Assembly (NCBI GenBank): GCA_030068145.1
Contig: JAPJBO010000010.1
Span: 310,001-374,000 of the forward strand
DNA length: 64,000 nucleotides
Origin: Diplonema papillatum
Lineage: Eukaryota; Euglenozoa; Diplonemea; Diplonemida; Diplonemidae
Direction: 5' to 3'
The position numbers and the translations under genes were made by a program. The notes under the pieces are model-generated. The model had not been told where the DNA came from, ran no database searches, and saw only the letters and a list, made by a program, of their open reading frames with translations. Below are positions 2,568 to 53,056 of this stretch, one piece after another (within the stretch, counting starts at the first letter, position 1; every line of letters begins with the position of its first letter).

Positions 2568-3203
2568 CGTAGTTGTCTCTTGGCCAAGCCAATGAGCTTG
2601 CACCCCATCCCAGGGAAAAAAAGAGCGTTATTCAACGGAAGACATTCTTTTTTCAGCAGCTGGCCGGGCGCGGCAACCCTCCGTCGCTTGCCGTGTGTGT
2701 TCTGTGTGGGGAAGCTTCTTGGGGTGGGGGGGTTTCCTTATCTAGTGCTTGCGGTGCAAGCTGCTATGCTCCGCAGGCAATCGAACGATGATTTGGTGAA
2801 GGGAGGAGGACCGAATGTGCTCAAGCGTCGGATTCAAAGGAGTCGGTGCTGTGGCGCCGTTGATCCGCGCGCGCAACGTCTTCGGGCGAGATTTCGTCAT
2901 CGACGAGGCCTGTTGAGATGATTTCAGTTCAGCTGCAGAACAGCAGGATAATACTACCGTTGCTAGGCGGTGACTGTGGAATGCGTATCTGCTAGTAGAT
3001 GTTGACCGAGGAAGGCAAATTGCTCCCATCATCCATTGGCGCACTGGGTAGGGCTGTGGTCGGTCGCAGTGCAATAGCGAGGGAGAGCGCCGAACTTTCT
3101 CTGCAAAGTAAACTCCAAGCCGCACACGACTTTGGAGTTTACGGTTTGGCAAAACGCGAGAAAAGTACACCCGCTCTTTGGATGTCCCAAGGGGGGGGGG
3201 GGG
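2568..3203. other. No gene recognised; flank of the Penelope-like element
   Basis: I see no supported gene. The stretch ends in a run of 13 G that abuts the retroelement. On the minus strand this is sequence that would have continued beyond the C-run in the PP2C gene before the insertion. Confidence 0.5.
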
Positions 3204-3584
3204 AAACTTAGTTTAATGTTTAGGCAGAGTACTGCCTCGCATGCATGTTTGATGCTAGCATCAAGTCTTCGTCGAAGAAAGTGTAAAATAAAATAGGGGA
3301 AAGGGAAAAGGGTCGCAGGGAGTGTAAGACTCCGCAGGTAGGGTCTGGAACCTTGAGGGACTATTCCTCTGTATTCTTTTTTTCTTTTTTTCTTTTTTTC
3401 ACCGCGGTGTTGTGAGCACCTCGTTCTTTGTCTCTGGTTTCGCTCTTGAACGCATACCAATCCAAAGTTAGAGCTCTTCAGTGGGTCCTTTGGACGGGGA
3501 CTTTCGGTCCTGTTCCGGTGCTTTCACAACTTTCTGGTTCCAATGTTTATCGCATCCTTCCTTCGTCAGATTAAAAAAAGGGGG
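3204..3584 (-). repeat. 3' pLTR of the Penelope-like element
   Basis: This 381-bp direct repeat is matched at 8930-9303. At its 3' end (minus orientation) it carries three successive perfect hairpins at 3223-3236, 3249-3264 and 3267-3277. It also carries a T-rich (C T7)n tract, one unit longer than in the other copy, and a hammerhead-like core at 3438-3481. Confidence 0.92.
3438..3481 (-). ncRNA. Hammerhead-like ribozyme core (3' pLTR)
   Basis: Read on the minus strand, CTGAAGA (the conserved CUGANGA box) is followed directly by GCTCT, a loop, AGAGC and GAAA. GCTCT and AGAGC pair as a five-base stem II, including the usual G10.1-C11.1 pair, and AAC/GUU can extend it past a bulge. Penelope-like elements are known to carry hammerheads in their pLTRs. 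I could not find convincing stem I and stem III partners or a cleavage triplet, so activity is unproven. Confidence 0.45.
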
Positions 3585-3649: not shown

Positions 3650-6600
3650 TTATATCTTCTCAAGGGAGACGATGTAACCGTTCGAAACGAACTTTCCGGC
3701 ACATGCTTCCCATGAGAGCACTGATACTTGCTGGTCGTCATAACACACCCATTCGTCTGCTTCTTTCATAATGGTGTAATAGTGCCCAGCATGTACTTTT
3801 CCAGTGTGGATTATGAAACCCGTCACCATGTACGTGTCTTCGCCAATCCCAATGGTTGATTGGATTGGTGTGCGGGCTTTCACTTTTATCTCCTCGCCTG
3901 TCCTCTTCGACCGTTGGGCCCGTTTCAGTGCCACGTCCATCATATTTGGAAAGGCATAGACCTCTTTCGAGGAGCCTACCGTCTTTTTTCGGCATGTTGT
4001 ACAGTCGAGGTCGACATCGGCTGCTCTCTTGTTCTTTACTTTGTTTACAAGAGCTTCAACCGTCTCGGTGTAGGAGTTCTCCCTGTTTTTGAGCTCTACA
4101 AGGAGAAATGGTTCTAACACCGGCACCGCTGTCGAGGTCTCCTGACACACTTTACAGGTGGTTCGCCGTGAGTATGTAACCATCGTTGGGTCATTGTTAT
4201 CCCCCCTCACGCAGCTTCTCATCCATGTCAGCAGTTCGTGGGCATCACGGTGTTCGGAGTCGTTCTCAGTTGTGCCGAAAACGAGACTTCGAATTTCTGC
4301 CATCGAACCATGGATGTCACGGCCAGCATCAAAATCCGTGAAAAGTCGACGGATTTTCAACTGTTCTTCATCCGGACGCTCAATAGTTTCGAGTTGGTTC
4401 CGGAAGTTTCGTTTGCGTGCCAGAAATTGGACGCTGGCGGCAAAGAAGCACGTGTTGCGAACGTTGGTGATGCCGTTGCGGTTGCGTTTGGGAGAACCTG
4501 TTGGTTCGTTTGAGGGCGAGACCGTCGTTGTGGTGTTTTCGGGCTCGGGCGGGTTGGGCGTCTGATGTGGTGGGGAGGTGGGTCGGTTCGGCTGTCGGGT
4601 GTTGATGAACGGCTTCTCTTCGTTCGTTGGGCGTCCTTCGTCATAGGCTTTCCCAACATAGTGGTAAAACTGTGTCAGCACCCGTGCGTCCAGTTCGTAC
4701 TTGCCGTATGTCTGCACGACAAAAGTATCGAACGTGTGTCGCAGTTCACGTCCGGAGAACCCACGATCTCGCAACCGGTAATACACCTTCATGATCTCGA
4801 CTTTGAGATCAGGCATGTTGTTGCAGATGCGGGCTGCTCGTATCAGGGCACCTTTGAATATCGAGGTTCCGGTGTTTCGCGGGACCGTCGACTCGGCATG
4901 CGTGTATTTGATGGGGTACCATGGAAACTCTTCACCCTTGTCCAGAACGGAGAGTCGGATGAAGTTGGCCTTGTTACCCCTCTCAACTCTAACGCGCATT
5001 CCCAAGAAGACTACGTCGTCAACGTCTTTCGACGTTTCCGAATATTCCATGCCGTAGATTGCTTCCGGTGGTGGTCGTGCACTCCAAGTCAGGAAGTCAT
5101 CGATGAACCTGACGCTGTCGGCGTGGGCTCTGGCTTCTTCATGGCGTCCTTCCGTGATCAGGCTATCGATGTAAAGCTTTTCACACCAGTAGCAATACAG
5201 ATTCGCCAGATCTGGGCTTGCGTTACCGCCCATTGGAATTCCAGTTACCTGCTGGTAACATTGACCACCGTTCGTCACAAACGTGTTGCCGACAATGAAT
5301 TCGACCAATTCCCGGATCTCCTCGACGTTGTATGCTGTCGCGTCCATCGCGTCAGCATTGCTGAACTCGAACTGCTGCTTCGACCGTCGTGCCTTCAGGT
5401 CACAACCACGTTCCGCCTTCGCGTACTCGAATGCTTCCGACACAGCGAGCATGACGTACTCTACAATTCGCTGTTGCGGAATCTTTGTGTACATTTCTTT
5501 GAAATCGAATGTACGTGGGACCTTCTGGCGTAGCCGTGCGTAGTTTGTCTTAATGTGAACGGCTACGCCGTCAATTGATTCGACGACGAAGAAGCGACGT
5601 ATCCCCGTCTTTGCCCGAGACGCTTCGTCCTTGCCTTGCAGTGTGGCTAGAACCAGTTTTAGGATGCCCGATGTCTCTTGGTGGGCTGGTGTTGTTGAGG
5701 CGCGCGTCTTCGGTTGCTTCTTGTTGGGAGTTTTTTCAGCTTTTGCCTGCTGTTCGTCCGTTTTCTCCGTGTTTCCCTTCTCTGAAACGCCGGCAATGTA
5801 CCGCATCCGAGGCTCGGGTTTGTGTAGCTTCGGAGTACCATATAGATATGGCAGGATGTTGGAGTGGGTGAAGTTGTGGGACTTGTTGAAGGTTTGGTGT
5901 TGCTGGAGAATGTCTGCCATCGAGGTGTCAACATGTTTGTAGGCTGAGCTTTGGTGTAGCTCTTTTCGAATGAGTTCCTTGTACTTTTCCTTGCAGATGA
6001 AACCGAAATCGTGTGCAGTTTTGTCTACAGGAAGAATGACAAGGTGTTCTTGCAGTTTCTTCAGCGTCCGCAGGGCATCTCGGAGGTGCGGCTCGTCCGT
6101 GTGTGCGTTGAGCGTTCCAAGAACGGTGTCGAACTCTTCTGTCAGTGTTGCTGCAAAATGCGATTTCTCGCTCTCGCTTGACTTCCTAAAGTTATTGGTA
6201 ACGAACTCTTCGACGTCGAACCGCATCGAATCGTAGAGTGACATAGGGCTGCTGGCTACTCGGTACTTTCGTCCCTTGCGGAAAAGTGACAAAAGGGCCT
6301 CGTCTGTCTTCAGGTCCGTTGCTAGCCCCAGAGCGTGTCCGTCGAGGTGACTAGTCTGTATGTGTTGTTTGCACGGACAGGTCGCCTCGGTGTTTGTCGG
6401 GTGGTGCGTCTCGTAGCTGACCTCGGTGAAGTTGCACAGGAGTGTCGCCAACGGTGGTTTCAGGCGGTTGCTCACCATGAGATTATCGAGAACCGCCGGG
6501 TTGGGGCATGCCTCGCGAATCCTTGTTCGAGAAAGGACACCAGCGATTGCCGTGCGGTCTTGTGCCGGGTGTTGGTGGGTCAGCTTGAAGTATCGGCGGG

Positions 6601-7876
6601 GAGGTGCTGCTTTCTTCTCGGTCCGGTTCCTGATGCGTTGACTGAGAAGTCGTTCGAGAGTTCTCACGTTGTCTGTTACGCTCTCGCCCTGTATGAAGGT
6701 TCTCAGCCAGGTGCGGAGGCGTAGGGCGCGGTTCGGGTGCCAAGTGGACAAGTCATACATCCCCAACTGGTCAGGGGGAAGCCTGATGAGGTGGTCCAGT
6801 TGTTTCCGCAACCCAGAACAAAAGCCTGGCGAGGTGTCGATTTCGAGCTTGCCGTCCCGCATGCGGTGCCAGGTGTTGCCATCGCTGCGCCGTTTTCGGA
6901 GACGCTGTGGTGGGCGCTGTCGTTTCTTCTTTTTATGCGGCTTGTGGCCAACCTTTTCCCCTTGGCGTCGATTCGTCATGTTCAGGGGAGGGTTGAGCCA
7001 CTTTATCCAGAAGTCCTCAATCGGTAGCGCTACCCGCGGGAAGTCTGCTGGTTGCGTGTAGAGTCGCTCCGGGACGTTCTGGATCGGGCATGCGTACAGT
7101 TTACGGCCTCGTTTGCGAAGTTGTTGTGCAACGCGGTTGCGCTTGGAGTTACGGTTCTCCCAGTGCTTGTTGTTACGCGTCTCGGCCGTCTTCGACGTCT
7201 GCCCAACGTAGAGGGCTGTGCCCCCTTCGTTCACGAGCACGTAGATGACACCTGTTCCGTCGTCAGCGACGTTCTTTGTGTCGATCCCGCACTTCGTTCG
7301 CCCGTCTGTTACCTTCTTACCGTAGCGCTTCCAAAAAAGCTGGATCGCATTTCGTCTTCGTTCTGCATGTCCGTCGTCGTTGTATGGATTGTTGCGGGTG
7401 TTGACGAAGGCGGCGAGGAAGCGGGTGTCTGACTTGGGCCGTTTTGTTTTTTGCCGATCTTTTTTCTCTTTTTTATGGGCGCGTTGTTCGTTTTTGGTTT
7501 TTTGTTTTTTTGGTTTTTTTGCCTCAGAGTCCTGTGGTCGTTGATCCGATTTTGTGCGGCTTTTTTGTGCTCTGAGGGTTTCTTTTTTTGGCCTCTTTTG
7601 TTCGCGCTCTTTTTGTCGGTTGGTGTGACCCGGGTGCTGTGCGGCGACCCGGGTCCTTTGTTTTGGGGCTGTTTGGGGTCTGGAAAGACCTTCGTCGCAG
7701 CTTTTCTCTTCCTTTCCTTCCGTTCGTTTCATTGGGAATCGACCAACAAGTTCAGGTCCTTCCTGGGAATGGCTTTGTCGGAAAATAAGACATTCGTCAT
7801 CTGTCCGAATCGGAATTCCAACGATTGTCTTACCGGTTGTTCCCTCGAGTTCGTCATCAAAGTAGTTCACTTTCAT
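3650..7876 (-). CDS. GIY-YIG / reverse transcriptase / USP polyprotein
   Basis: This is the retroelement protein. From the first ATG (7876) it has 1408 residues; the frame stays open about 40 codons further upstream. Residue numbers below count from a GTG 21 codons before that ATG. A K/R-rich stretch spans 90-170. A GIY-YIG nuclease lies at about 229-300 (GVIYVLV, then LYVGQT). A CPC motif occurs near 521. The Penelope N-domain motif VDK is near 639. The RT has YGTPKLHKP near 700, FDFKEMYTKIP near 811 (motif A), TGIPMGGNASP near 899 (motif B) and RFIDDFL near 944 (catalytic Asp pair). After a P/T-rich linker (1105-1150) comes a compact USP fold. It has a Cys box (GITNVRNTCFF, Cys1164), a DAHELL box near 1232, a zinc ribbon (CKVC 1262, CTTC 1313) and a His box (HAGHYYT, His1386; YDD, Asp1401). 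All three USP catalytic residues are present. Inferred role: target-primed retrotransposition plus deubiquitination or protein processing. Confidence 0.93.
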   Translation of the reverse strand: MKVNYFDDELEGTTGKTIVGIPIRTDDECLIFRQSHSQEGPELVGRFPMKRTEGKEEKSCDEGLSRPQTAPKQRTRVAAQHPGHTNRQKEREQKRPKKETLRAQKSRTKSDQRPQDSEAKKPKKQKTKNEQRAHKKEKKDRQKTKRPKSDTRFLAAFVNTRNNPYNDDGHAERRRNAIQLFWKRYGKKVTDGRTKCGIDTKNVADDGTGVIYVLVNEGGTALYVGQTSKTAETRNNKHWENRNSKRNRVAQQLRKRGRKLYACPIQNVPERLYTQPADFPRVALPIEDFWIKWLNPPLNMTNRRQGEKVGHKPHKKKKRQRPPQRLRKRRSDGNTWHRMRDGKLEIDTSPGFCSGLRKQLDHLIRLPPDQLGMYDLSTWHPNRALRLRTWLRTFIQGESVTDNVRTLERLLSQRIRNRTEKKAAPPRRYFKLTHQHPAQDRTAIAGVLSRTRIREACPNPAVLDNLMVSNRLKPPLATLLCNFTEVSYETHHPTNTEATCPCKQHIQTSHLDGHALGLATDLKTDEALLSLFRKGRKYRVASSPMSLYDSMRFDVEEFVTNNFRKSSESEKSHFAATLTEEFDTVLGTLNAHTDEPHLRDALRTLKKLQEHLVILPVDKTAHDFGFICKEKYKELIRKELHQSSAYKHVDTSMADILQQHQTFNKSHNFTHSNILPYLYGTPKLHKPEPRMRYIAGVSEKGNTEKTDEQQAKAEKTPNKKQPKTRASTTPAHQETSGILKLVLATLQGKDEASRAKTGIRRFFVVESIDGVAVHIKTNYARLRQKVPRTFDFKEMYTKIPQQRIVEYVMLAVSEAFEYAKAERGCDLKARRSKQQFEFSNADAMDATAYNVEEIRELVEFIVGNTFVTNGGQCYQQVTGIPMGGNASPDLANLYCYWCEKLYIDSLITEGRHEEARAHADSVRFIDDFLTWSARPPPEAIYGMEYSETSKDVDDVVFLGMRVRVERGNKANFIRLSVLDKGEEFPWYPIKYTHAESTVPRNTGTSIFKGALIRAARICNNMPDLKVEIMKVYYRLRDRGFSGRELRHTFDTFVVQTYGKYELDARVLTQFYHYVGKAYDEGRPTNEEKPFINTRQPNRPTSPPHQTPNPPEPENTTTTVSPSNEPTGSPKRNRNGITNVRNTCFFAASVQFLARKRNFRNQLETIERPDEEQLKIRRLFTDFDAGRDIHGSMAEIRSLVFGTTENDSEHRDAHELLTWMRSCVRGDNNDPTMVTYSRRTTCKVCQETSTAVPVLEPFLLVELKNRENSYTETVEALVNKVKNKRAADVDLDCTTCRKKTVGSSKEVYAFPNMMDVALKRAQRSKRTGEEIKVKARTPIQSTIGIGEDTYMVTGFIIHTGKVHAGHYYTIMKEADEWVCYDDQQVSVLSWEACAGKFVSNGYIVSLEKI

Positions 7877-8929
7877 GTTATCGGACTCGGTGGTTGCGGA
7901 CGATCCACTAAGCCGTCGTAGTATGTGCTTCTTAGGCACTTTCTGTGTCGGTTTCGGAACGGTAAAGGGGGTTTTTACTTTGAGTCTGCCAGCGTGTCAG
8001 GCTGACGGGTCCAAAGGCGGTCCTGCGGTTTTCTTTTACGGTCACACGGCAAGGGGCCATCGTGTGGTTGCAACATCCTTTTGTTCGGTTGTGTTTCGGG
8101 TTTTTGGTTGTCGCCCGGGGTTATGGTTTCCCTGGCTTTGCATCACACGGGTGTGGATGATACCTGTGCTCTTCTGTGAACCCTGTTGGGGGTTGTGATG
8201 GGGTGAAAGTGGGGTTTGTTCGGGGGAGACGGTAAAGTTTGACTGTTTGCTTCCTCCCGTCAGTTGTTAATGGCTGCCCCAACAAGAGCCACTGTCGAGA
8301 AATCGGCTTGCGGTCAGCTAGTATCGTCTCTGTTCCAAACGGGTGGGGAGAAGTGGGTTGCTGGAAGGTAGACATCCTTCCTCTCTGACGCGGGGTGTGG
8401 GGCGGGTTTAAATAAAACTTTTACTTTGCTGGGGGCCGGTTCGTTACGGCACTCGGAAGCGCTGTTTATAGATCCGGCAACGCGGCCAACAAAGGGATGC
8501 GGGGTTTTGCTTCCGGACTTCAGTCGCCGTTGCTGCAGAGAAGCGTTGGGACGTCACATTTGCATCCGTTAGGTGGGGAGGGGAAAGGCTGTATGGTTCG
8601 CTTTCCGTTTACCATCCGGAAGACTGGTCTTGTTGGGTTTGAAGGAGGGAAGAGAATGACTGACAGTCAACCTTTTCCCGCGTAGACAACGCGGTCCTTT
8701 CCAAACTTCACATTTTTTGTGAGGTCGGAGGTGGGGTCTCTGTCAGCTCGGTGCTATTTGGGTCTGGTTCCCGTTGCCGGTGCTGCTTTGTCACAGTCGG
8801 TTGGGGGTTTTTCCTATCTTCGTAGGTTTTTGGGTATTCCCATATTTTCTGAGAATCGATGTCTTCTCCGTCTTGGAGAGCAGAGTGAGACCTGTGCCCT
8901 CAGAGGGCCGGCAGACTCTGTCGGGGGGA
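7877..8929 (-). other. 5' leader of the Penelope-like element
   Basis: About 1 kb lies between the 5' pLTR and the first ATG. No second ORF with recognisable motifs was seen. The final 40 codons before the ATG are open in frame with the polyprotein, so a non-AUG start is possible. Confidence 0.6.
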
Positions 8930-9303
8930 AAACTTAGTTTAATGTTTAGGCAGAGTACTGCCTCGCATGCATGTTTGATGCTAGCATCAAGTCTTCGTCG
9001 AAGAAAGTGTAAAATAAAATAGGGGAAAGGGAAAAGGGTCGCAGGGAGTGTAAGACTCCGCAGGTAGGGTCTGGAACCTTGAGGGACTATTCCTCTGTAT
9101 TCTTTTTTTCTTTTTTTCACCGCGGTGTTGTGAGCACCTCGTTCTTTGTCTCTGGTTTCGCTCTTGAACGCATACCAATCCAAAGTTAGAGCTCTTCAGT
9201 GGGTCCTTTGGACGGGGACTTTCGGTCCTGTTCCGGTGCTTTCACAACTTTCTGGTTCCAATGTTTATCGCATCCTTCCTTCGTCAGATTAAAAAAAGGG
9301 GGG
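8930..9303 (-). repeat. 5' pLTR of the Penelope-like element
   Basis: This direct repeat is essentially identical to 3204-3584 apart from one missing CTTTTTTT unit. Its outer end (AAAAAAAGGGG on the plus strand) abuts the C-run at the end of the PP2C reading frame and supplies that frame with its TAA stop. Confidence 0.92.
9156..9199 (-). ncRNA. Hammerhead-like ribozyme core (5' pLTR)
   Basis: This is the second copy of the core described at 3438-3481. The CTGAAGA box (complement of 9193-9199), the GCTCT/AGAGC stem II and the GAAA box (complement of 9156-9159) are all preserved exactly. Stems I and III were not resolved. Confidence 0.45.
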
Positions 9304-10935
9304 GGGGGGGCGGGGAGACGGGAACATACACGGAAGAAAGGCAAGGGGCTTGGCGGTCGGAAGAAGTCCGCGGTCGGACGGTGTAGAGAAGATGTTGCGC
9401 GGGGTGCAGCAAGCGGACGGAGACTGCGGTGTGGACGGCGACCCGGGCGAGGGCGAAGCGTCCATCGACAGGTCGCCGCCGGCGCGCGCTGCGGCGGCGG
9501 CGCCGAAGGACGACGAGCAGGCCCCGGGCTCGCACGAGGCCGACGCCGCCCGCGGGTCGCACGGCTTTTTCGCCGCCGACACGATCGAGTGCACGTCGTG
9601 CAGCAGGAAGATCATGACGGTGATGTTGTCGCCGCTGCGCCGCTCTATGGCGGTGCGGATGAGCTCCCTGCACACTCGGTTGCGCAGGAAGTCTTCCTTG
9701 GACCGGTGCATGTCGACGGGCGTCGACGCATACTTTTCGACGTCGCCCTGGTAAAAGGGGGTGTCGGCCAGGGTGCGATTGACGATGTCAACGGCCTCCT
9801 GGTCCTGCACCACGTCCCACAGCCCGTCCGAAGCGATGATCGCAAACGTGGTGGACTGCGTGATGGGGAAGCTCGTGACCTCCGGCCGGTTCGAAATGGC
9901 GATCTCGTGGTTCTCCTTGATGCCGTGCTTGCCCGAAAAGTCGCCGATGGCGCGCGTCACCAGCGGCAGCTGGATGGCCTCAACACCAGCGACGCGCTTC
10001 TGCCGGCTGACTTCTTCTTCATTCTTCATGTTGTGGTCACGAGTCAGGGGAACGGCAACACCCGCATCGCATAGCACCGCGCGAGAGTCGCCAACCCAGG
10101 CCACGTTGCATTCTGAGTCAGATACGGCGATGACGGTGGCGGTGGTGCCTTGGTTCATGTAGCGGCCGGCTTGCAGCAGTTTGAGGTCGGTTTCGATGAG
10201 CGAGTCGGTCAGCAGGTGCGGGAACTCGAGCGCGCGGAACGCCGACGAGTGGTGCATGATCGACTGCAGCTTCTCCTTCGCCTGGCGGATGACCTCGCGG
10301 CAGCAGTACTCGGCAACCTGCGCGCCGCCGTGCCCGTCGCAGACGATGCCGATCGCGACGTCGTCGAATTTCTCCGAGAAAAAGTCGTCTTCCATCGTGC
10401 TCCGCGGACCCTTCTCCAGCACCGCGGCGATGGTAGGATTCGACTTCTCGACCGTAGCGTTTGCCGGCCGATGCACCCGCCACATCTGCAGCGGCTCGGT
10501 CTTCCGGTCGCGCCGCATGTACGTCAAGTTCGGGTCCAAGCTCTCGACGCCCTCGGAGATCACGAACCCGTCGTCGTCGTCGCACGGCAACCCCATGAAG
10601 CTCTTCTGCTTCTTGAACCGGGCGTGCGGCGCGTCCGCGTGGTCGTCTACGAACATGAACCCGCCGGCCGCAACCGCCGGATGCGTCGCTGCGCGGCTGC
10701 CGACGATCCCCGGGCCGGCGGACCCTGCCGTCGGCGTCCACGCCACCGGGCTGCTGCTGGACTCCGACTTCCCGCGGCCGTAGGGGGGGCTCCGCAGGCC
10801 GGAGTCGAGGGTGCCGCCCATGCTGGACGTGGAGTATATCAAGTCGTCGTCGTCGTTGTCGCGCATGTCCCACAGCGCACGCGCGGCGGCGCATTGGCCC
10901 CCGCTCCTGAGCGGCGGCGGCGCGTACATGTCCAT
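9289..10935 (-). CDS. PP2C-family (PPM) Ser/Thr protein phosphatase
   Basis: This is a 548-residue frame starting at ATG 10935, the first of two close Met codons; upstream in-frame codons run into a low-complexity GA tract. Residues 1-165 are disordered and acidic or Ser/Pro-rich. The PP2C domain spans about 166-447, with motifs in order RSTMEDDFF (Glu182, Asp183), CDGHGG (Asp200), GTTATV near 263, WVGDSRAVL (Asp283), SDGLWDV (Asp370) and SGDNITVMI (Asp436). These Asp residues are the expected metal ligands of a Mg/Mn-dependent phosphatase, which removes phosphate from Ser/Thr. No signal peptide or membrane segment was seen, so it is probably cytosolic or nuclear. The tail is Ala/Ser/Pro-rich. 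The last residues (PPPPFF) and the stop lie in a C-run and in the inserted retroelement, so the native C-terminus is not shown here. A GTATGT just before the C-run could instead be a splice donor. Confidence 0.9.
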   Translation of the reverse strand: MDMYAPPPLRSGGQCAAARALWDMRDNDDDDLIYSTSSMGGTLDSGLRSPPYGRGKSESSSSPVAWTPTAGSAGPGIVGSRAATHPAVAAGGFMFVDDHADAPHARFKKQKSFMGLPCDDDDGFVISEGVESLDPNLTYMRRDRKTEPLQMWRVHRPANATVEKSNPTIAAVLEKGPRSTMEDDFFSEKFDDVAIGIVCDGHGGAQVAEYCCREVIRQAKEKLQSIMHHSSAFRALEFPHLLTDSLIETDLKLLQAGRYMNQGTTATVIAVSDSECNVAWVGDSRAVLCDAGVAVPLTRDHNMKNEEEVSRQKRVAGVEAIQLPLVTRAIGDFSGKHGIKENHEIAISNRPEVTSFPITQSTTFAIIASDGLWDVVQDQEAVDIVNRTLADTPFYQGDVEKYASTPVDMHRSKEDFLRNRVCRELIRTAIERRSGDNITVMIFLLHDVHSIVSAAKKPCDPRAASASCEPGACSSSFGAAAAARAGGDLSMDASPSPGSPSTPQSPSACCTPRNIFSTPSDRGLLPTAKPLAFLPCMFPSPRPPPPFF

Positions 10936-11253
10936 GCGCCTCTTCCCCCACCGAGTGACAGAGAGCCGAAGAGAAAGAGAGAGAGAGAGAGAGAAAAAAA
11001 AGAGAGAGAGAGAACAAGAGCGGCTAGATCCGGCCAGGCACAAAAACTTGGAGTCGAACCGTTTCTTTTCGAACGCGCGCCCGCGCGGCAGCTCAGGCAG
11101 AGGGGGGGGCGGCCCCGTCAACAGTCTCCCGTCCCGTAGCTTGCCTCCACTTTCTTTCCCACCTTCTCCAACCCCGGTCTATTTGCCTGAAGGGGAACAT
11201 GCGTTGTGCGGTGGACCGACGGCTCCGCGAGCCAATAGAGACGAAAGGTGGGT
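10936..11253. other. Upstream region of the PP2C gene with GA tract
   Basis: This holds a purine-rich GA/A tract (about 10967-11014) immediately 5' of the phosphatase start, likely leader or promoter sequence. No TATA-like motif or other gene was recognised. Confidence 0.5.
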
Positions 11254-17041: not shown

Positions 17042-18742
17042 TCAGACTTGGACGGCTGTATGGTGGTCCAATGCGAACCCCCCAGGGCATGTCTTCACAC
17101 CTTCTCGGCAGACTCGAAAGGCATCACTACCAACTGTGCCCCTGCGCGAGTACGAGTCAGCGGGCATTCTGTCTGTGGGAAGCCAAGCCACTAGTGCCCC
17201 CAAGGCGAATGAGCGAAAAATAGCAAAGTGTTCTTTCAACATGGCGTTGGCCAAACGAGTCGTCGAGTGTCCCTTTGTCAGAACGTGAAATACGGCCATG
17301 TTGTCAGTTAGGAAAAGCGGCGACCTGCAACCCAAACTGCGGGCGGTGCGAACGGCACGCAGTGCGGCACGCAGCTCCAGATGGAAGATACCATCTGTCG
17401 TCGACCACCTACCCCAACTGGCACCAGCAGTGGTGCATGTGTTGTAGCACACGCCCCATCCAACGCTGCTAGCATCCGACCATAACACACAATCAAAGAC
17501 CTCCGGAGGCCTCGACCTCGGGGGCATCCAGTCGGGTACACGAAGCCTGCTGAGGAAAACAGCTACATCACTGCGAAAACCTTGAGGGAGACACTGAGGG
17601 GACGACCAGGTTAGTTGTCCCTTTCCAATCTTAGCTGCACGATCTCGCACCCACTCCAACACCTCGGCATAATGACACAACCAGTGCCCCGTTGCGTAAC
17701 ACGTCCAGACAATACAACCTACTACGTACCATACCTGTCTGACCGAAACCACCGGGGACCGCAACAGCCCTGCTATCGCGTCCGTGGTGTCAGCTCGCCA
17801 AAGGTCAGGCAGGCGAAAGCCGGAGCCTGCAAGGTCCCATTCGATCCCAAGATATTCCAACTGTTGTGTTGGTTGCAAAATACTCTTGGCATCGTTAATC
17901 TCGGCCCTGACCTGAGCCGACCTTTCAAGAAATTGTGCTGCGTTCGACTGACACTCGATGGCTGTCCTCCCTAAAATGATGATATCGTCGTAGCACGCCG
18001 CGCCACAATTTAACAGACCAGGACCCATTATGGTTTCAGTGGACCGCTGTGCCACGTAGGGTGCCCATGACCAGCCCATGGGCATTCTGGTCCAGCGATA
18101 CCAGGTCGACCCCACGCGAAACACAAAAAAGGAGGAATTGTAGGCGTCGAGAGGAAACTGATGGAAGTATCCCCGGAAATCAATCTTGATTGCCCATTTA
18201 AATCCTGACGAAAGGATGAGGTGGGACAGAGTCAATGGGCTAGGCAACTTGAAGGCGGGCGGACGATGCATGATGTCATTGACCGGTCTACCGTCGACGA
18301 CGAGCCGTCGTACCATGGGGTCCTTCTTAGGCACATCGAAAAGCGACACTACCGCACGCACCGGGTCTGAACGATGTTGCGGAAGCGCCACGTGCTGGGC
18401 AACGCACTGATGGATAAAAGCGGCCGGCATCCGGGTTTTTGGACCGGGAACCGGAGATCGAGAGAGCACTGCCTGTGAAAACGCGCCGGTCTCTTGCAGC
18501 ATGTCGATGAAAGATACGTCCCATCCTGAATCTAACGCCATGCGTCTGAGTGCCTTCAAGTCTATTAGACCCGTCGGGAAATCATCCAGACGGGCTCCGG
18601 GAGCGCGATTGTCAGCAGCCTTTGAAAAGGAGGCGAGGAAAGGTATGAGCTCCGAGTATACGAACCTCCAGAACTCATCTGGGTATGCACATATACCTTC
18701 CCCAAAAAGTATCCTGTACAAGTCAGGGACCCGCGCATGCCT
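17042..18742 (-). CDS. Reverse transcriptase / RNase H of the YR retroelement
   Basis: This frame follows the recombinase stop codon directly. It is open far upstream, overlapping the recombinase in another frame, but recognisable protein begins only around 18742. No Met lies near that point, so expression by a -1 shift from the recombinase frame is likely; no classic slippery heptamer was seen. Motifs in order are KIDFRGYFHQFPL (RT motif A), RMPMGWSWAPYVAQ (motif B), CYDDIII (catalytic Asp pair, coded near 17975-17990) and YLGIEWDL. RNase H follows, with LWSDASSVGWG, FHLELRAA and LTDNMAVFHVL. The RT type, with RMPMGW before the DD box, is that of DIRS-order elements. Role: reverse transcription of the element RNA and removal of its RNA strand. 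The product is about 566 residues without the overlapping lead. Confidence 0.9.
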   Translation of the reverse strand, partial: RHARVPDLYRILFGEGICAYPDEFWRFVYSELIPFLASFSKAADNRAPGARLDDFPTGLIDLKALRRMALDSGWDVSFIDMLQETGAFSQAVLSRSPVPGPKTRMPAAFIHQCVAQHVALPQHRSDPVRAVVSLFDVPKKDPMVRRLVVDGRPVNDIMHRPPAFKLPSPLTLSHLILSSGFKWAIKIDFRGYFHQFPLDAYNSSFFVFRVGSTWYRWTRMPMGWSWAPYVAQRSTETIMGPGLLNCGAACYDDIIILGRTAIECQSNAAQFLERSAQVRAEINDAKSILQPTQQLEYLGIEWDLAGSGFRLPDLWRADTTDAIAGLLRSPVVSVRQVWYVVGCIVWTCYATGHWLCHYAEVLEWVRDRAAKIGKGQLTWSSPQCLPQGFRSDVAVFLSRLRVPDWMPPRSRPPEVFDCVLWSDASSVGWGVCYNTCTTAGASWGRWSTTDGIFHLELRAALRAVRTARSLGCRSPLFLTDNMAVFHVLTKGHSTTRLANAMLKEHFAIFRSFALGALVAWLPTDRMPADSYSRRGTVGSDAFRVCREGVKTCPGGFALDHHTAVQV

Positions 18743-19695
18743 TACTGAAGGGCAGACAGTTGTGCCGGCCTGCGGCCTATGTCCGCAGGTGCCGTTTGCA
18801 TCATATACCGGCGTGTCGTGCGGGGATCGGAATGGCGGAGCAACTCGACGAGCTCCTGCCTCGTGGCTCCATCCCTCTCTAGTACCTGGGTGGCGCCACG
18901 ACGGAAACTGTGCAAGACGGCTCCTGGCGGCAAGGCAGCTCGGATCCTCTGAAGGGCGACATCGTACTCTTGTTTCGTCTGAGCAAATACGGGTCCCGAC
19001 CGGGTCGCTCGGACGAGTCGAACCAGCCGTGCAGTGAGAAGCCCGGGCGGCATGTACTCCGGAGCATTGTAGGACTTTGCCTGTTTCTCCTTCATGTACA
19101 GTTGCAGCCCGACCATCTGCGGGGAGGCACCCCGGTTGTGGATCTCCTCCACATCTTCGCACGTCAGCACGCGGAGATCGGGAACTCGAGCCCGAGTCAA
19201 CCATACCGTCGCTACCATCGCGGCCTCGCGTGCATGGCCTTTCTGCTCCAGCCTTTCGACTGTCGCTCTCGCCTGAGCCGTATCGAGCGGCGTCGCCTGA
19301 TGGGGTCGAACCATCACCGAAAGCCGCTTCAAGGCCTGCGCCGTCTGCTGGACACGTCTCGTCCTCACCCCGCGTATGCCGTGGTCCACCAATACCTTCA
19401 TGAGCCGCGAGAGGTAATTTCGCACGGTCAACGGCTGGGCCGGTCCCAAACGACTCCAAGCAAACCGAACGAGAGACAAATCGACGGGGGCGCGCCTCTC
19501 TTGCGTCTCCAGGAAACGAGAGAACTGGGCCAGCAGCCGGTCGGCCTCGCCGACATTTCTCGGACCCGTTGCGAACAGATGTGCGTGTTCGGGCGGGATG
19601 CTGCTGGCAATGGCGCGAGCCAGTGCGTGTCCGTCGCGAATCAAGAACAGCTCGTGTTCTAGTCTCTCGCGGGCGCTCTGGTTTCGCAGAAGCAT
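18742..19695 (-). CDS. Tyrosine recombinase of the retroelement
   Basis: This 317-residue protein starts at ATG 19695, five bases after the Gag stop (TGA-GCAGC-ATG), a spacing that suits termination-reinitiation. The N-terminal half (about 70-120) looks like the core-binding helices of phage-integrase-type recombinases. The catalytic half carries LTRARVPDL (Arg170), HSFRRGA (His262, Arg265), RHSDPRTT (His288) and RRYM (Tyr297), so the Arg-His-Arg-His-Tyr set is complete. Role: integrating the circular DNA copy by strand exchange instead of a DDE integrase. Its position before RT is unusual for DIRS-order elements. The (TG)n on both sides may reflect its target preference. A longer in-frame opening upstream overlaps Gag and is not needed. 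Confidence 0.9.
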   Translation of the reverse strand: MLLRNQSARERLEHELFLIRDGHALARAIASSIPPEHAHLFATGPRNVGEADRLLAQFSRFLETQERRAPVDLSLVRFAWSRLGPAQPLTVRNYLSRLMKVLVDHGIRGVRTRRVQQTAQALKRLSVMVRPHQATPLDTAQARATVERLEQKGHAREAAMVATVWLTRARVPDLRVLTCEDVEEIHNRGASPQMVGLQLYMKEKQAKSYNAPEYMPPGLLTARLVRLVRATRSGPVFAQTKQEYDVALQRIRAALPPGAVLHSFRRGATQVLERDGATRQELVELLRHSDPRTTRRYMMQTAPADIGRRPAQLSALQ

Positions 19696-19700
19696 GCTGC

Positions 19701-20960
19701 TCACTTCTGCCGGGCGAACGACTTCTTGCCCTCGCTCCCAGATCTGCTGCCCTCTGAACGGGGGCGAAATCCGGACTGCTTCGGCCGACGTTCTCGGCCT
19801 CCGCCTCCCCGAGACCGACGGCGATACGCATGTGTCCTGGGCGCGGCTGCCTCGTTGATAGCTGCCGCCGCCGCGACCTCTGCTGCCTGCTTCGCCCGCT
19901 TCATGCGCTGTGGCACCACTTCGGGGTCCTCGAGGGCGCCGGCGAACGCATCCGCGGCCTGGTACCCCAGTTTCTCGCGGACCCTCCAAAACTCCAACTG
20001 CTCGGCGATCCTGCTCAACACGGCACCGTCGTCTTCTCCTGACAGGACCATCCTGACGATGTCCGTCAGTTGCCGGTAAGCCGCTGCCGCAGCGACCTGT
20101 AGGGGGGCTCGATTCCCTAGCTCTGTGAGCAAGAGCTGGGAAAAACCCGGCTCGTCGTCCGCAAAAACCGGCCACGACGCGCCATCGTGTAAAACAGCTC
20201 TGACGGAGCCCGAGTCGAGACGTCTCTTGTCGTTCCTGTCTTCCGGAACATAGGCCTTTGATGGGGGAACGGCGGGCTCTGGCGCGGCGACTAGCTTCCA
20301 AAAACGCTTCAGCTGATGATGCGGGACAGGCTGAAACGTGCTCTGGCCCAAAACGACGAGGGTGACACCCTCCAGTCCGATGTCGGTTATCACGGCCGTG
20401 ACCGTACCATCCGTCATCTTTGCTCCAAGCTCCAACCCTTCCATCAGCGTCGGGGCGGGAAACTCCTCCGCCTGCTGTTGAGGCTCGGTGGACTCGCTTG
20501 CCTTGTTCTCCAATGCACCCACCCGGTTCGCAATGCCCGACAACACGCTCAACACCTCTTCCAGCTTCGCTTCGACGGAGCCGGAGAGGCTAGGGGCCGG
20601 CACGACCGGTGTGGCGGGGGCCGTCTGAGACGTCACATTCTTCTTTATCGCCGCCGTCGTGGACGCCGCGTCCTTTTCCATGCAGGTCGTGACGACTCCC
20701 AAAATTGCGGTCGCCGACATCTTCCCGAGTTCAGCGTACGGGACAGCTAAGAGGTCGACGATCACCCCTTTCGCCTGCTCGACGGTGTGATGAGAAAACC
20801 CACCAAACCAGTCGCGGCAGTTCTTCTCCATCTCGGCGGTGCTGAAATTCCGTCGTGCAGTGCCAGGAGCTGAGCCGAAAACGGCGGTCCATCTCTGAAC
20901 TAGCGGTGCAGGAAAATTGAAGTCTGCGCGTTCTCGTGCCGGGAGGGGCGAGCCTTGCAT
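19701..20960 (-). CDS. Putative Gag-like protein of the YR retroelement
   Basis: This 419-residue frame starts at ATG 20960, the first ATG after the upstream direct repeat. It lies first in the element, where Gag is expected. I see no zinc knuckle. The N-terminal half contains a predicted-helical segment (MEKNCRDWFGGFSHHTVEQA), the middle is Ala/Val/Pro-rich, and the C-terminal 60 residues are Arg/Lys/Gly/Ser-rich, suited to binding nucleic acid. Identification as Gag rests on position and composition, not on a conserved motif. Its TGA stop is followed after five bases by the recombinase ATG. Confidence 0.65.
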   Translation of the reverse strand: MQGSPLPARERADFNFPAPLVQRWTAVFGSAPGTARRNFSTAEMEKNCRDWFGGFSHHTVEQAKGVIVDLLAVPYAELGKMSATAILGVVTTCMEKDAASTTAAIKKNVTSQTAPATPVVPAPSLSGSVEAKLEEVLSVLSGIANRVGALENKASESTEPQQQAEEFPAPTLMEGLELGAKMTDGTVTAVITDIGLEGVTLVVLGQSTFQPVPHHQLKRFWKLVAAPEPAVPPSKAYVPEDRNDKRRLDSGSVRAVLHDGASWPVFADDEPGFSQLLLTELGNRAPLQVAAAAAYRQLTDIVRMVLSGEDDGAVLSRIAEQLEFWRVREKLGYQAADAFAGALEDPEVVPQRMKRAKQAAEVAAAAAINEAAAPRTHAYRRRSRGGGGRERRPKQSGFRPRSEGSRSGSEGKKSFARQK

Positions 20961-22038: not shown

Positions 22039-22449
22039 GGGGCCCGAAAGATGGTGAACTACTCTAAAAAGGAACGAAAGCCGCAGTCTAGTCATGAGGG
22101 ACAAGTTACGGTTCATATAACCCAAGGAAGAAACACCTACCGTATGCGAGATGTGCAAGGTGGCTCGCTGACACACTGCGCGCCAAACTCTAAAAAACGG
22201 CGGCTCACCTCTGCCCACGTTGTGGCCCGCCTCCTAAGGGGCCGCTCTGACTTGGTAATGTCTCAGTTCAACTGCAGATGACGCCAGAGGATAGACGTAC
22301 CATTGACTATGCCTGAATAGGACGAAGCCAGGGGAAACCCTGGTGAAGGTCCGTTGCAATGTTGACGTGTCAATCGCTCGTCAAAGCTGGGTATAGAGGC
22401 GAAAGACCCATCGAACCATCTAACAGCTGGTTCCCTCCGAAGTTTCCCC
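22039..22449 (+). rRNA. LSU (28S-type) rRNA fragment, interrupted
   Basis: The segment 22306-22449 carries the conserved cytosolic LSU rRNA stretch with ACTATGCCTGAATAGGACG, GGGGAAACCCTGGTG, GGGTATAGAGGCGAAAGACC, ATCGAACCATCTAACAGCTG and TTCCCTCCGAAGTTTCCC. Immediately upstream in rRNA should be CCCGAAAGATGGTGAACTA, and this is found at 22043-22061, about 245 bases earlier. The fragment is therefore split by an insertion or intron of about 245 bp. Neither side continues into the rest of the LSU, so this is a displaced fragment, not a functional rDNA unit. It is of eukaryotic cytosolic type, not plastid. Confidence 0.8.
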
Positions 22450-30832: not shown

Positions 30833-33800
30833 TTAACGTGGCCCCCCTCTTAGCGAGAGTGCGTCCACGCGCGGTTTCTTCTGGGTTACTGCTGATGCTC
30901 CCCCGGGCTGCTGATGGGGGCCTGGAGTTTCGTGCGGGCCGGAGTGGTGCTTGAGGCAGCATGGTCTTTCTTCCTCCGTCTCTCTGCACCGCTCTAGTCC
31001 ATGAGGTCGGCAGTGTTCGGCTTCTGGACGTGGGCACTGTCGGCTGCGTCGCGCGCACACAAGTTCCTTGACTTCTCGTCCGCCCGGGCCCTTCTTCTCC
31101 TGGGGTCTAACCGGGCTCCGTGGGGCTTCCCTTCGAGTTCCTTCCCTGCGGTATTCGTCGACGTTTTTCGGCCTCGCCCGTCTGGCTCCGGGTTGCGACC
31201 ATCCTTCGGGGTATGTTTCCTCCGGCTGAAAAGTAGCGGCCCATGCCAGGTGCTGCGGGAACAGCGGTGTCTCCTCTGCAGAAAAGTGATCGCTTTGTAC
31301 ATGCTCCCTGACACCCAGGATAACGTCCTCGGCCGCTCTCGTGATCTGCGCTCTGCACGATACTCCCCGCACAATGGTCCCTCCAAGCGACGTTAGTACT
31401 GTCGTCGGCGTGTCGAACCCGAAGTGCCATGGCCGCTTCGTCACCTTCGTGTATGAGCTTCCCAGCTCAATCAGGCTCAGTGCCTTCCCAAGGAGTGACT
31501 TCTGCAACTGTCGCAGCAGCAGCATCTGCTCCTGTCGGGGTGGCCGGCTCCGCTGCACTACGTCCATCGCCGCGTTGCTGAGCGCGTCCGCATCGCGGTT
31601 GCGCTCCCGCCGAACGTGTTCGACTGCCACTTGTAACCGCTGCTGGATGGCGCTTATGCGGGTACTTGCGCGGGTGAGCATCGGCCTTAGCTGCTCAGAG
31701 CAACTTGTTCGTCGTGTCACTTGGCCCACTGCGAGGGCGGAGTCGCCGCGGACCACGCAGCGCACTTCCCGCTCGACTCTTACTTGCTGAAGGAGCTCTA
31801 AGCTAGCCAGGAGTCCTTCATACTCCGCGACGTTGTTCGTGCGCACGTTTGGCAGGGGCAGTACAATCTCCGCTTCTTTCTTGCCGTTCCGGTACAATAC
31901 AGCCCCTGCTCCCGCTACTGCAAAAGCGGTGCCGTTTCCACGCGCACCTCCGTCGAAGTACACTGCGATTCCGTCTTCGGCTTCTTCGTCCGGCAGCGTG
32001 TCCCGTGCTGTTGTCGGCTTGTTCCTGGGGACTTCGGGTGGCGGGGCGTAGAACCGATTCTTTACCGGGGGCAGCTTGCATCCCGTTTCCAACTCAAAGG
32101 CTACCGCTAGCTCCATGTAGCTGATTCCCGTTTCCTGCCCCGGCGACGCCCACTTGAGCGCTTTCAGCCAGCCCGTGAAAGCTGTCCAGAGGCTCGGGCC
32201 ATGCTTCCATTTCGAGGTGGTTGCTGTGTGTGGGATGTCCGGTACGCTCAAGACCCGGGGGACCGTCGGTACCCATCCTCGCGGATACTCTACCGTCCGG
32301 TGGTGTCGCGTGGACCGATCCGCCAAACCATCCGCTTCCTGTCTGGCCACCAGTACCGCTACGAAGAACCTCTGCAGTCTCACCACTACACGGAGACGCT
32401 GGTGCTCGTCGATGGGCAGCGGGTATGCGTTTTGCGTTTGGGGGCACAGGGGGACTACTCCACAAAGACGTAGACACGGCGGCCAAGTTCCTTGGACGTT
32501 CTCCAGGTCAGCGTACTCCGACCTCGTTTGCGCCCACGCCGTGCACCTCCAGAAAAGGTGTTCAACTGTTTCTCGTTCCAGCGAGCCGCAATACTTGCAC
32601 GGGGCCTCGAGACCGGTTCGCCCTGTGGCCGGTGTTGCCCCCGCAATTACTGTTCTCAGCATTCCTGCTTGATAAGCGGTCAGTGGCGTTTCCTGCGTCT
32701 CAAGAAGGTGCCTTGTGGCCCGCGTGTCGATGCCGTGTTGGGCTCCGTCGAAGTCTGCCGGCCTTCTTGTCGCTAGCTTCTTCATCTCCTGCAGACGCAG
32801 CGCTTGGCGAACGTCATGCTGCAGAAGCTTTGTGTTGCCCATTGACGCTGCATCGTGGGTCACCGTCTCTCCGGCATCGTTCTCGTACGTGACCGTCGTT
32901 GGCGCCGTCCACCGCCAACCTATGTCCACCAGTGCGTCCTTGAAAAAGGCGAACGGCCCCCGCACCTGTGCGAGCGCAGCATCTCGCTGCCACGCCACTT
33001 GCGCCAGCCTCCGGACATGATCCCATTTTTGGCTCTGCTCCGCCCACGTCGTAATCCTTCGGTATTGGGGAACTACGATTGGATCTAGCCTGTGTCCGTG
33101 GTGAAGGATGTGCAGTACAGCTTCTTGGGCACGGCGGGGGCCGCCTGTCCATACCGCCGCAGTGAACAGCCTTCTCAAACGCGCAGCGTCTGTCCTTCCG
33201 ATGGTCGTCACAACTGCACCATAGTACCGCTTCGCCCCGGCTGCCATGCTGACTGCTAAATCTTTGGCCTGCGCGGGTAGCGGTAGGAGGGCGGCTCTTC
33301 TTAGGACCGCTTCTGCTTCTGCATTACGCTGTGTGATTCTGCTCGAGAGGGTGAGTCTTCTGTTTGGTGACTGGGGTTTTGTGGACAGCATCACCCCCAA
33401 TGCGTCGAACTCAACCCGTCTGGCGAGCGTCACCGGTGGCGCTGCCGGTTGCAACGCCCTATCAAGCTCGGTGTATTGCACTGGCTCCAATGCACCCTGT
33501 GCTGTGGTGAAGCAAAAGGACTTCTTCTGCGCGCACACTCGCATTCCCGTTAGCCCGGCGAACTCGCTTGAACGTTGTACCGCCTCCTTCAGGTTTGCGC
33601 AGTTCTTCAGCAATGCGTAGAGATCGTCCACGTAAGACAATGGAATCGCTGCGTCAAGCTCAGCGATGTGTCTCATCCAAACGCTGATCAGCACGTTTAT
33701 GAGCACCACGCTGATTGGACACCCTTGCATGATCCCATTCGTGGGTATGAAACCTTCCCCAATTGTGTTTCCAACACGGAAGTGACGCTGCATGTTGGCA

Positions 33801-36475: not shown

Positions 36476-37125
36476 GCCTGCCACGCCTGGGCAGTCTCGT
36501 CACCAGGGCGGGCCGCACCCTCGTCGTCCTGCATGGTCGCGTCGCCAGCCCCTTCGGCCTTCGGCTGCAACTCGCTCAGCAGAGCCCGTAGGCGTGCGGT
36601 CTGCTTCTTCCGGCCCTCTGTGTGCGCCTTCAGAGCCGCGCGCCACTCCCTCTCCGCTTCTTTCTTCCCGAATTCCGCCACGAACTCCGCCTTTGAGTAC
36701 GTGCGGCCTTTTGGGGCGCTGTTGTCAGGGAGGCGCTGAGGCGGGTGTGCCGTGGTTAGGCGCTCGATCTGCTGCTCGAGGCTGCGCACCCTCTCTTGCC
36801 TCTGCTCTTCGCGTTGCCGCTTCTCCTGCTCCTCGAGGTCGACGATGTCGGCTTCTTCGTCGCCGACGCGCACCCTCTGCGCTGGTGGTGGTGTCGAGGC
36901 TTCGATTAGCGCCGCGCCGCGCCGCATCCTGACCCGTGCCCCCGTCCACCCAATCTGTTCGATGACAGATTCGTAGGCACCTACCTTGCCCTTCAACCCG
37001 CTCAATTGCAGTGAGAACTGCTTGAACGTTGGCAGATGCACCACACGCACCGACGCGGACGTTTCGCTTCCCGAGCCAGCTGCTCCGGGACCCAGGGGGA
37101 CCGCGTGGAGGTTGTCCGCGTTCAT
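36373..37125 (-). CDS. LINE ORF1, coiled-coil protein
   Basis: This 250-residue protein starts at ATG 37125, the first Met after the (CA)n tract; the same frame reads through the microsatellite further upstream but that is not coding. Residues 30-75 form a mixed domain (FSLQLSGLKGKVGAYE). Residues 95-135 are a Glu/Gln/Arg-rich coiled coil (DLEEQEKRQREEQ). The rest is basic and Ala/Gln-rich. No zinc knuckle or RRM signature was seen. By position it is the ORF1 RNA-binding or multimerising protein of a LINE. The TGA stop lies about 100 bases inside ORF2. Confidence 0.75.
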   Translation of the reverse strand: MNADNLHAVPLGPGAAGSGSETSASVRVVHLPTFKQFSLQLSGLKGKVGAYESVIEQIGWTGARVRMRRGAALIEASTPPPAQRVRVGDEEADIVDLEEQEKRQREEQRQERVRSLEQQIERLTTAHPPQRLPDNSAPKGRTYSKAEFVAEFGKKEAEREWRAALKAHTEGRKKQTARLRALLSELQPKAEGAGDATMQDDEGAARPGDETAQAWQAWAHQQQRHREVAQAEARAAWEAKYEKRLQSIRH

Positions 37126-51853: not shown

Positions 51854-53056
51854 GTGCCGAGCCAGGAGTGGCGCGCCACCTCTAGAACGTTGCAACCGAG
51901 AAGCGTGGCGGCGGACTTATTTTCGAGCAAACTTCGTCTGCGTCCGGTGGTGGTGCTACTTTGAAGAAGAAAAGAAAAAGGGGGAGAGAGGGTGATTTAT
52001 TCTTGTTGTGTTGCCGACAATCAACCGGGGTTGATGTGCAAGGTGGTTTATTTTGTTTCCTCCTGAACCGGGAGGTTGTTCTGGTTGGGCGGCGGGGGCG
52101 GCGTCTTATGACGTTGTGTCCTTTTGTTTTTTTGCTTGTTTTGCTTGTGCTTTTCTTTTTTTTTTTTTTTTTCTCCTTTTTTTAATGCGACGGCCGCCAA
52201 GGCGTTCCCTCCCCGTTCCTTTACGCGGCGAGAATCGGTTGCAGAGGGGGGCCACACCGCCGCTGCGTGCGTGGGGGAGCAAGCAAAGATCGCTCGGATT
52301 CTCTTTTTCTGTGTTTCCGAACGATCAGCCCCGGCGTTGTCGTGCTGCCTGTGTTGTCTTTCGACTTTGTTTTTTCTTCTTTGCTTTTGTCTGTATTTTA
52401 TGGAAAAGAGTATTACTTCGCTTGAAACGCTTTTTTGTTTCCTCCTTCTATTTGAATCTCAAAACCCTGAAGTATTTTTGTTTAACACGTGTGTGTCTGT
52501 GTGTTTGTCTTGTGTGGAGAAAACCAAGCGCGGGGGTGTTGTTTCTTCGGGTTGTGTAGTTGTGTGTCTCGCTTGCTGCTCTTGCAACGCTGTAGTAGAT
52601 TGTGGTAAAGTGCGTACGAAGATGATGTGTGGGGCGCTCTCGATTGCTTAGTGCACAGTGCCCACACACACACAAACAATAGGTATCTCTACCTATTTGG
52701 TACGGAAAGTAAGTGAGACATGAACACCTTATGCGCTAACCGTGAATCTAACATGAAGGGTTGGCGGAGTGGGTGCCAGTCTTTACGACGTTTTTTAGCG
52801 TTATTTATTTTTTGTTGAGTCTTGCTCCCACTGACTCTTCGAAATGCCGGAGGCATAAATGTCGGTAGAATAATCTTTCGTTTCCTGTTCGTGCTCAGGT
52901 GCGGGGAGTATTTTTGAGGAATTCCTCTGGGTCTTTCCTCAGCGGGAGTACTGGAGTCGTGAGATCTTGAGGAAGACGCTTGACCACTTGGATTGGATTC
53001 ACTTCGTTTTGTGCGCATAGGTTGCGTGTGGCGCGCCGACTCCAGAACCTTTGACA
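51854..53056. other. No gene recognised; upstream of kinase gene
   Basis: Immediately upstream of the kinase start is pyrimidine/purine-skewed sequence with T-runs near 52150-52175. GTTGTGTTGCCGACAATCAA plus CCGGGGTTGATGTG near 52006 recurs at 60167. No gene was recognised. Confidence 0.5.

Follow-up and report, generated by a model that had tools for sequence, protein, structure and literature searches.

Does a retroelement of Diplonema papillatum encode its own deubiquitinase? The question arises at a locus where an earlier note, made from the sequence alone, had placed a ubiquitin-specific protease (USP) domain at the C-terminus of a Penelope-like protein, in one frame with GIY-YIG endonuclease and reverse transcriptase (RT) domains. 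The window analysed here is a stretch of 64,000 nucleotides (C10:310001-374000 of the 271-Mb assembly), and genome-wide searches covered that assembly.

A single frame joins endonuclease, RT and USP

The minus strand of the window holds an uninterrupted frame (3650-7939), continuous through all three domains as the note had claimed, with 1429 codons counted from a GTG at 7939 and 1448 from the preceding stop; it is open to 7996. GTG is unlikely to start translation in a eukaryote, and in the window copy the first in-frame ATG is found at 7876, giving a likely real ORF of 1408 residues (3650..7876, minus strand), and an ATG occupies the aligned place in four aligned copies, one each of subfamilies A-D. 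In two of the three subfamily B copies that were read (L010 and L025) the long frame starts elsewhere than in L011; these two thus differ upstream, with an N-terminus out of frame with the others. Residue numbers of the window copy, which represents A, are counted from the GTG.

The order within the frame is GIY-YIG endonuclease, RT and, at the C-terminus, USP. The GIY-YIG domain (6989..7252, minus strand) lies N-terminal to the RT and is matched by Pfam at residues 230-317 (E=5.4e-6, above the cut-off). All four members A-D match this model at E up to 0.1. In the second clade described below, E scores 22.9 bits, just above the cut-off of 22.6, and F (L042) scores 22.5, just below it. Lys/Arg-rich stretches adjoin the domain and are candidate nuclear signals.

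The RT region (4640..6172, minus strand) contains the motifs LVILPVDK, LYGTPKLHK, FDFKEMY, GIPMGGNASP and FIDD, which span residues 633-948. The Pfam RVT_1 match of A (residues 870-954, E=0.094) falls below the cut-off, so that the RT call rests on motifs (FDFKEMY, GIPMGGNASP, FIDD), which we take to agree with a Penelope/telomerase-type RT. RVT_1 matches two of the four members A-D, with a best E of 0.04, and none of the three E-G proteins (Pfam, E up to 0.1). PDB sequence matches of the RT were all weak and were taken for chance, as was a Pfam match to an arenavirus glycoprotein (E=0.023, below the cut-off, one of the four members A-D).

RT and USP are connected by a Pro-rich, variable linker (4475..4640, minus strand), which is 48-52% identical in the pairs A-B, A-C and A-D. 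The linker bears on a proposal of the earlier note, that the USP might process the element's own polyprotein. Retroelements and viruses do encode proteases for polyprotein cleavage, but USPs cleave after the Gly-Gly end of ubiquitin, and Pfam finds no ubiquitin-like domain in the A-D or E-G proteins. Gly-Gly occurs in A only at 239, 891 and 904, inside GIY-YIG and RT and not in the linker, and the linkers of B-D, E and F lack it as well, as judged by eye. Self-processing is disfavoured by these features, and we give it very little credence.

The C-terminal domain is a USP

Window positions 3650-4495 (minus strand) correspond to residues 1149-1429 and contain the USP (UCH, peptidase C19-type; 3650..4474, minus strand). 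With the whole protein as query, the Pfam UCH model (PF00443) matches residues 1156-1412 with E=3.6e-18 and 66.5 bits (cut-off 23.9), and the C-terminus alone gives E=1.3e-19. The same model is matched by all four members A-D and by three of three further proteins (L041, L042 and L045).

In A, the Cys box GITNVRNTCFF holds Asn1159 and Cys1164, Asp1232 sits in the DAHELL box, and two CxxC pairs (Cys1262/1265 and Cys1313/1316) make up four Zn-type cysteines. His1386 lies in AGHYY and is followed by Asp1401 in WVCYDD. The catalytic Asn and Asp are presumed ones, assigned by analogy with USP7. An alignment of eight element sequences (A, B, C, D, E, F, F2 and G) shows that the Cys-box Asn, the Cys and the first CxxC are kept in all eight, as are the GHY/GHF His and the following DD; the second pair is CxxC in A-D and CxC in E-G. 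The claim that a USP domain ends the retroelement protein is borne out. At the sequence level the domain is complete, with its catalytic residues intact, and we infer that it would be an active deubiquitinase.

The best PDB sequence match of the C-terminus of A is USP21 (E=1.1e-7 from a single sequence and 3.9e-8 from a profile of four members). USP15, USP36 and USP28 are further relatives by sequence, and the matches also include entry 3mhh, 'Ubiquitin carboxyl-terminal hydrolase 8', which we take to be the yeast SAGA enzyme Ubp8. For the clade E USP, USP12 is the best match, accompanied by USP46 and USP36; USP12 and USP46 have a role on histones. It is conceivable from such relatives that the USP acts at the insertion site on ubiquitinated histones or on repair or replication factors, opening chromatin or steering repair. 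The fusion to an endonuclease-RT would deliver it to the cut, and the possible nuclear signals beside GIY-YIG point the same way. However, these matches concern the USP family at large and single out no subfamily, and Pfam finds no histone-binding module in the A-D or E-G proteins. We consider a role at the insertion site rather unlikely, although it is the main rival of the role proposed below.

The fusion is shared among copies in the genome

The USP query gave at least 141 genome matches (138 of 1103 candidates scored) and the RT query at least 85 (84 of 677 candidates scored). Among the 85 listed RT matches, 80 extend to the RT end and five stop short of it, and a listed USP lies downstream in 73 of the 80 (both compared by eye). 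Six have no listed USP (C604, C1725, C1796, C318, C98 and one of two on C187), but the fetched DNA contains USP sequence in all six, broken or partial in some; one RT copy (C1753) runs off its contig. USP sequence, in some cases broken, is thus found in 79 of 79 testable RT copies among the matches listed, which rules out a private insertion or a chimera. Of the 141 listed USP matches, 33 sit in frames that stay open for 1400 aa or more. Judged from these copies, the predicted fusion is real, intact by sequence and shared. The earlier note had named two outcomes that would refute it, a missing UCH-family match and other copies that end before the domain; neither was observed.

At C604, C1562, C364 and other places the RT or USP is interrupted by stops or incomplete, beside intact copies. 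A family of ageing retroelements would show such a mixture. The 3' flank differs in each of seven family A copies, which hence represent separate insertions. Where compared, family A copies are 99.7-99.9% identical in DNA, and this identity together with the distinct flanks indicates that the element has probably moved recently. The broken USPs could instead mark the domain as a dead passenger, if the fusion is not an artefact of assembly. Against both stand the seven distinct 3' flanks, the intact catalytic residues in eight of eight aligned sequences and dN/dS values well below 1, although most pairs have a nearly saturated dS. A passenger or artefact is extremely improbable in our view.

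No relatives were confirmed in viral_contigs, where the USP and RT alignments were each scanned with two short peptide patterns, and the plasmid collection gave no match to the element.

A second deep clade has the same domain order

A Pfam UCH search of the genome gave at least 149 matches (149 of 935 candidates scored). Among those listed, 112 resemble repeated elements in score or type (54 E-type, 41 F-type and 17 others); the other 37 comprise host-like, fragmentary and unassigned matches. Frames that stay open for 1400 aa or more contain 39 of the E- and F-type matches among the 149, with scores like those of the fetched element copies. The three of these 39 that were read (L041, L042 and L043) encode GIY-YIG, RT and USP in the same order as A; the fetched frames of L044 and L045 begin after GIY-YIG. 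Identity to A is 0.32 in GIY-YIG, 0.36 in RT and 0.23 in USP for E, and 0.26, 0.34 and 0.23, respectively, for F. The RT of this clade has at least 85 genome matches, some of them in 1590-aa frames outside the listed UCH matches. E-G constitute a second deep clade with the same predicted domain order and putative catalytic residues.

Selection on the USP and its origin

By the Nei-Gojobori method, as pairwise averages, the dN/dS of the USP is 0.10-0.25 in six pairs of A-D and 0.13-0.26 in six pairs of E, F, F2 and G, while the A-D values are 0.05-0.12 for the RT and 0.13-0.32 for the linker; with dS near saturation in most pairs, the ratios are rough. USP divergence between A and C is 0.22/0.20/0.52 by codon position. 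By these estimates, the USP is under purifying selection in two deep clades (A-D and E-G).

The USP also evolves faster than the RT, with an A-C identity of 67% against 78%. This fits a host-facing arms race, in which the USP would counter host defence in trans by deubiquitinating silencing or immune factors, to the benefit of all copies and of non-autonomous relatives. Yet selection is purifying on pairwise averages, and a benefit in trans is hard to select on one copy, which makes such a role improbable.

The origin of the domain was addressed with a tree of 24 USP sequences and 286 columns, including 15 host-like USPs from 20 places fetched. L058 was taken as H; the element copies L062, L064 and L065 were left out, as was L063, which has 13 stops. 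A-D and E-H lie apart in this tree (SH-aLRT/UFBoot support 75/81), but the AU test does not reject a tree that forces them together (p=0.283), so one or two USP captures are both compatible with the data. It is possible, though we lean towards doubting it, that two deep lineages independently captured different host USPs and kept them. If this is true, selection would have favoured a deubiquitinase in these elements more than once, and the host would rely on ubiquitination as a major brake on them.

Architecture of the element

The gene is flanked by direct repeats some 380 bp long and 5.7 kb apart, which form the 5' pseudo-LTR (8923..9302, minus strand) and the 3' pseudo-LTR (3197..3584, minus strand). 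A tandem array on C510 comprises three copies 5726 bp apart, and one of its junctions reads from USP through pseudo-LTR into leader. Pseudo-LTRs and tandem copies are described as Penelope-like features in the available text of two studies (PMC11167929; PMC3846280).

Each pseudo-LTR of A contains a hammerhead-like core (CTGAAGA...GAAA with a 5-bp stem II; 9156..9199, minus strand, and a second copy at 3438-3481). The core, recognised with its stem II, is also found in two B copies and appeared in 0 of 200 mononucleotide shuffles. The pattern is absent from the scanned stretches of C, D, E and F, of which those of E and F may include less than a complete pseudo-LTR, and Rfam gives no hammerhead match in the element sequence.

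Between the 5' pseudo-LTR and the ORF lies a leader of about 1 kb (7877..8922, minus strand), which is conserved between subfamilies at the DNA level and has no codon periodicity. Over the leader and the first ~500 nt of the ORF, A-B identity is 75-94% and A-C identity 67-87% per 100 columns, with little or no codon periodicity. The A-C divergence of the leader is about 0.2 at all three codon positions, unlike that of the USP, and dS in the N-terminal region is 0.10-0.47. In PAc of Anolis, the protein is believed to bind an RNA signal held by the first 172 nt of the ORF, according to the available text (PMC11167929). By analogy, the leader and ORF start may hold an RNA signal bound by the element protein.

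At L009, L016, L018, L019, L020 and L024, and at the family C loci L022, L014, L021 and L026, the 3' end is mostly TTTTCCCCCC; on the 5' side of the same set, where read, a C run is followed by T's. The C run and TTTTCCCCCC at the insertion ends possibly reflect a C-tract target or a copying signal.

The assignment to Penelope-like elements in the earlier note agrees with the pseudo-LTRs, the tandem copies, GIY-YIG and the hammerhead-like core (A and B). On the basis of these element features, and not of RT phylogeny, an autonomous Penelope-like retroelement is the best explanation of the predicted architecture.

Other features of the window and further families

Two other RT-containing frames of the window give no UCH match (Pfam, E up to 0.01): a 952-aa frame (17045-19900, minus strand) with an RVT_1 match (E=5e-14), and a LINE-like frame of 1887 aa (30839-36499, minus strand) with endonuclease/exonuclease, RVT_1 and RNase H-type matches. 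Open frames on the minus strand also match a PP2C phosphatase (9292-11178, E=5e-43), its low end overlapping the pseudo-LTR edge by a few bases, and a protein kinase (50030-51916, E=1.8e-25). An isolated 109-bp fragment of eukaryotic LSU rRNA lies on the plus strand (22306-22414, E=9.6e-24).

Further repeated GIY-YIG families occur in the genome, with open frames of 2210, 1544 and 1457 aa (C42:53347, C168:308527, C2479:5675 and others; L066). The L066 translation has a domain that resembles that of A, and L067 has stops in the one frame read.

A proposed role in protecting the element

From the predicted fusion it seems that the element is equipped to undo ubiquitin tags by itself, perhaps tags that would destroy it. 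Ubiquitination restricts the mammalian L1 proteins ORF1p (PMC5570191) and ORF2p (PMC10716122), as stated in the available text of both reports. Because host ubiquitin ligases restrict these proteins, our first choice is that the USP acts on the element's own particle and frees it of ubiquitin, a role to which we give even weight for and against. The earlier note had likewise proposed such protection, alongside action on chromatin ubiquitin at the target.

According to this scheme, the element protein would bind its own RNA, and host E3 ligases would attach ubiquitin to the protein or its partners. The USP, placed C-terminally on a flexible linker behind GIY-YIG and RT, would take the ubiquitin off. 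Deubiquitination would let the particle escape proteasomal degradation up to the point at which the target is nicked by the endonuclease; the RT would then copy the element RNA into the nick. Particle protection has points against it as well: the precedents come from mammals, which are distant from this host, the faster divergence of the USP relative to the RT could mean a host-facing substrate, and host USPs in this genome could do the same job in trans.

A retroelement with its own deubiquitinase would make it directly testable whether ubiquitin brakes retrotransposition outside animals, and how retroelements respond. The USP would be a new enzyme class for Penelope-like elements, whose mobility cycle remains poorly known, and an RT and a deubiquitinase in one protein would offer a natural entry to finding the ubiquitinated step of integration. 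Among the literature matches listed, covering titles and abstract openings with subscription papers mostly outside, no USP-retroelement fusion was found.

Comparison with known systems

The Cys, His and Asp boxes and the Zn-type cysteines are common to the element USPs and to their matches USP21 and USP28 (A) and USP12, USP46 and USP36 (E). In contrast to these enzymes, the element USP is a domain of about 280 aa within a retroelement protein, and in E-G it carries a CxC pair.

Naiad and Chlamys elements are Penelope-like elements defined by a GIY-YIG N-terminal to the RT. The element presented here has the same arrangement, a likeness by domain order and not by RT phylogeny. We know of no USP in Naiad or Chlamys.

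The OTU-like protease of Helentrons belongs to a protease family different from that of the USPs. Helentrons are nonetheless comparable as mobile elements with a deubiquitinase-like cysteine protease, but they are rolling-circle DNA transposons (PMC6431247, available text). Burro, a group of giant Gypsy-like elements with MATH/TRAF, BIR and RING-like motifs, is likewise a case of retroelements with ubiquitin-pathway motifs; these are LTR retrotransposons, and the available text describes no USP in them (PMC6431247).

In Penelope/Poseidon elements such as PAc of Anolis, GIY-YIG is C-terminal, whereas it is N-terminal here, and no USP is described in the available text (PMC11167929). PAc has a hammerhead ribozyme at the junction of pseudo-LTR and ORF, whereas in our element only a hammerhead-like core was seen, in its pseudo-LTRs (PMC11167929 for PAc). 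Both, however, combine RT and GIY-YIG in a single ORF, and both have pseudo-LTRs and tandem copies (PMC11167929).
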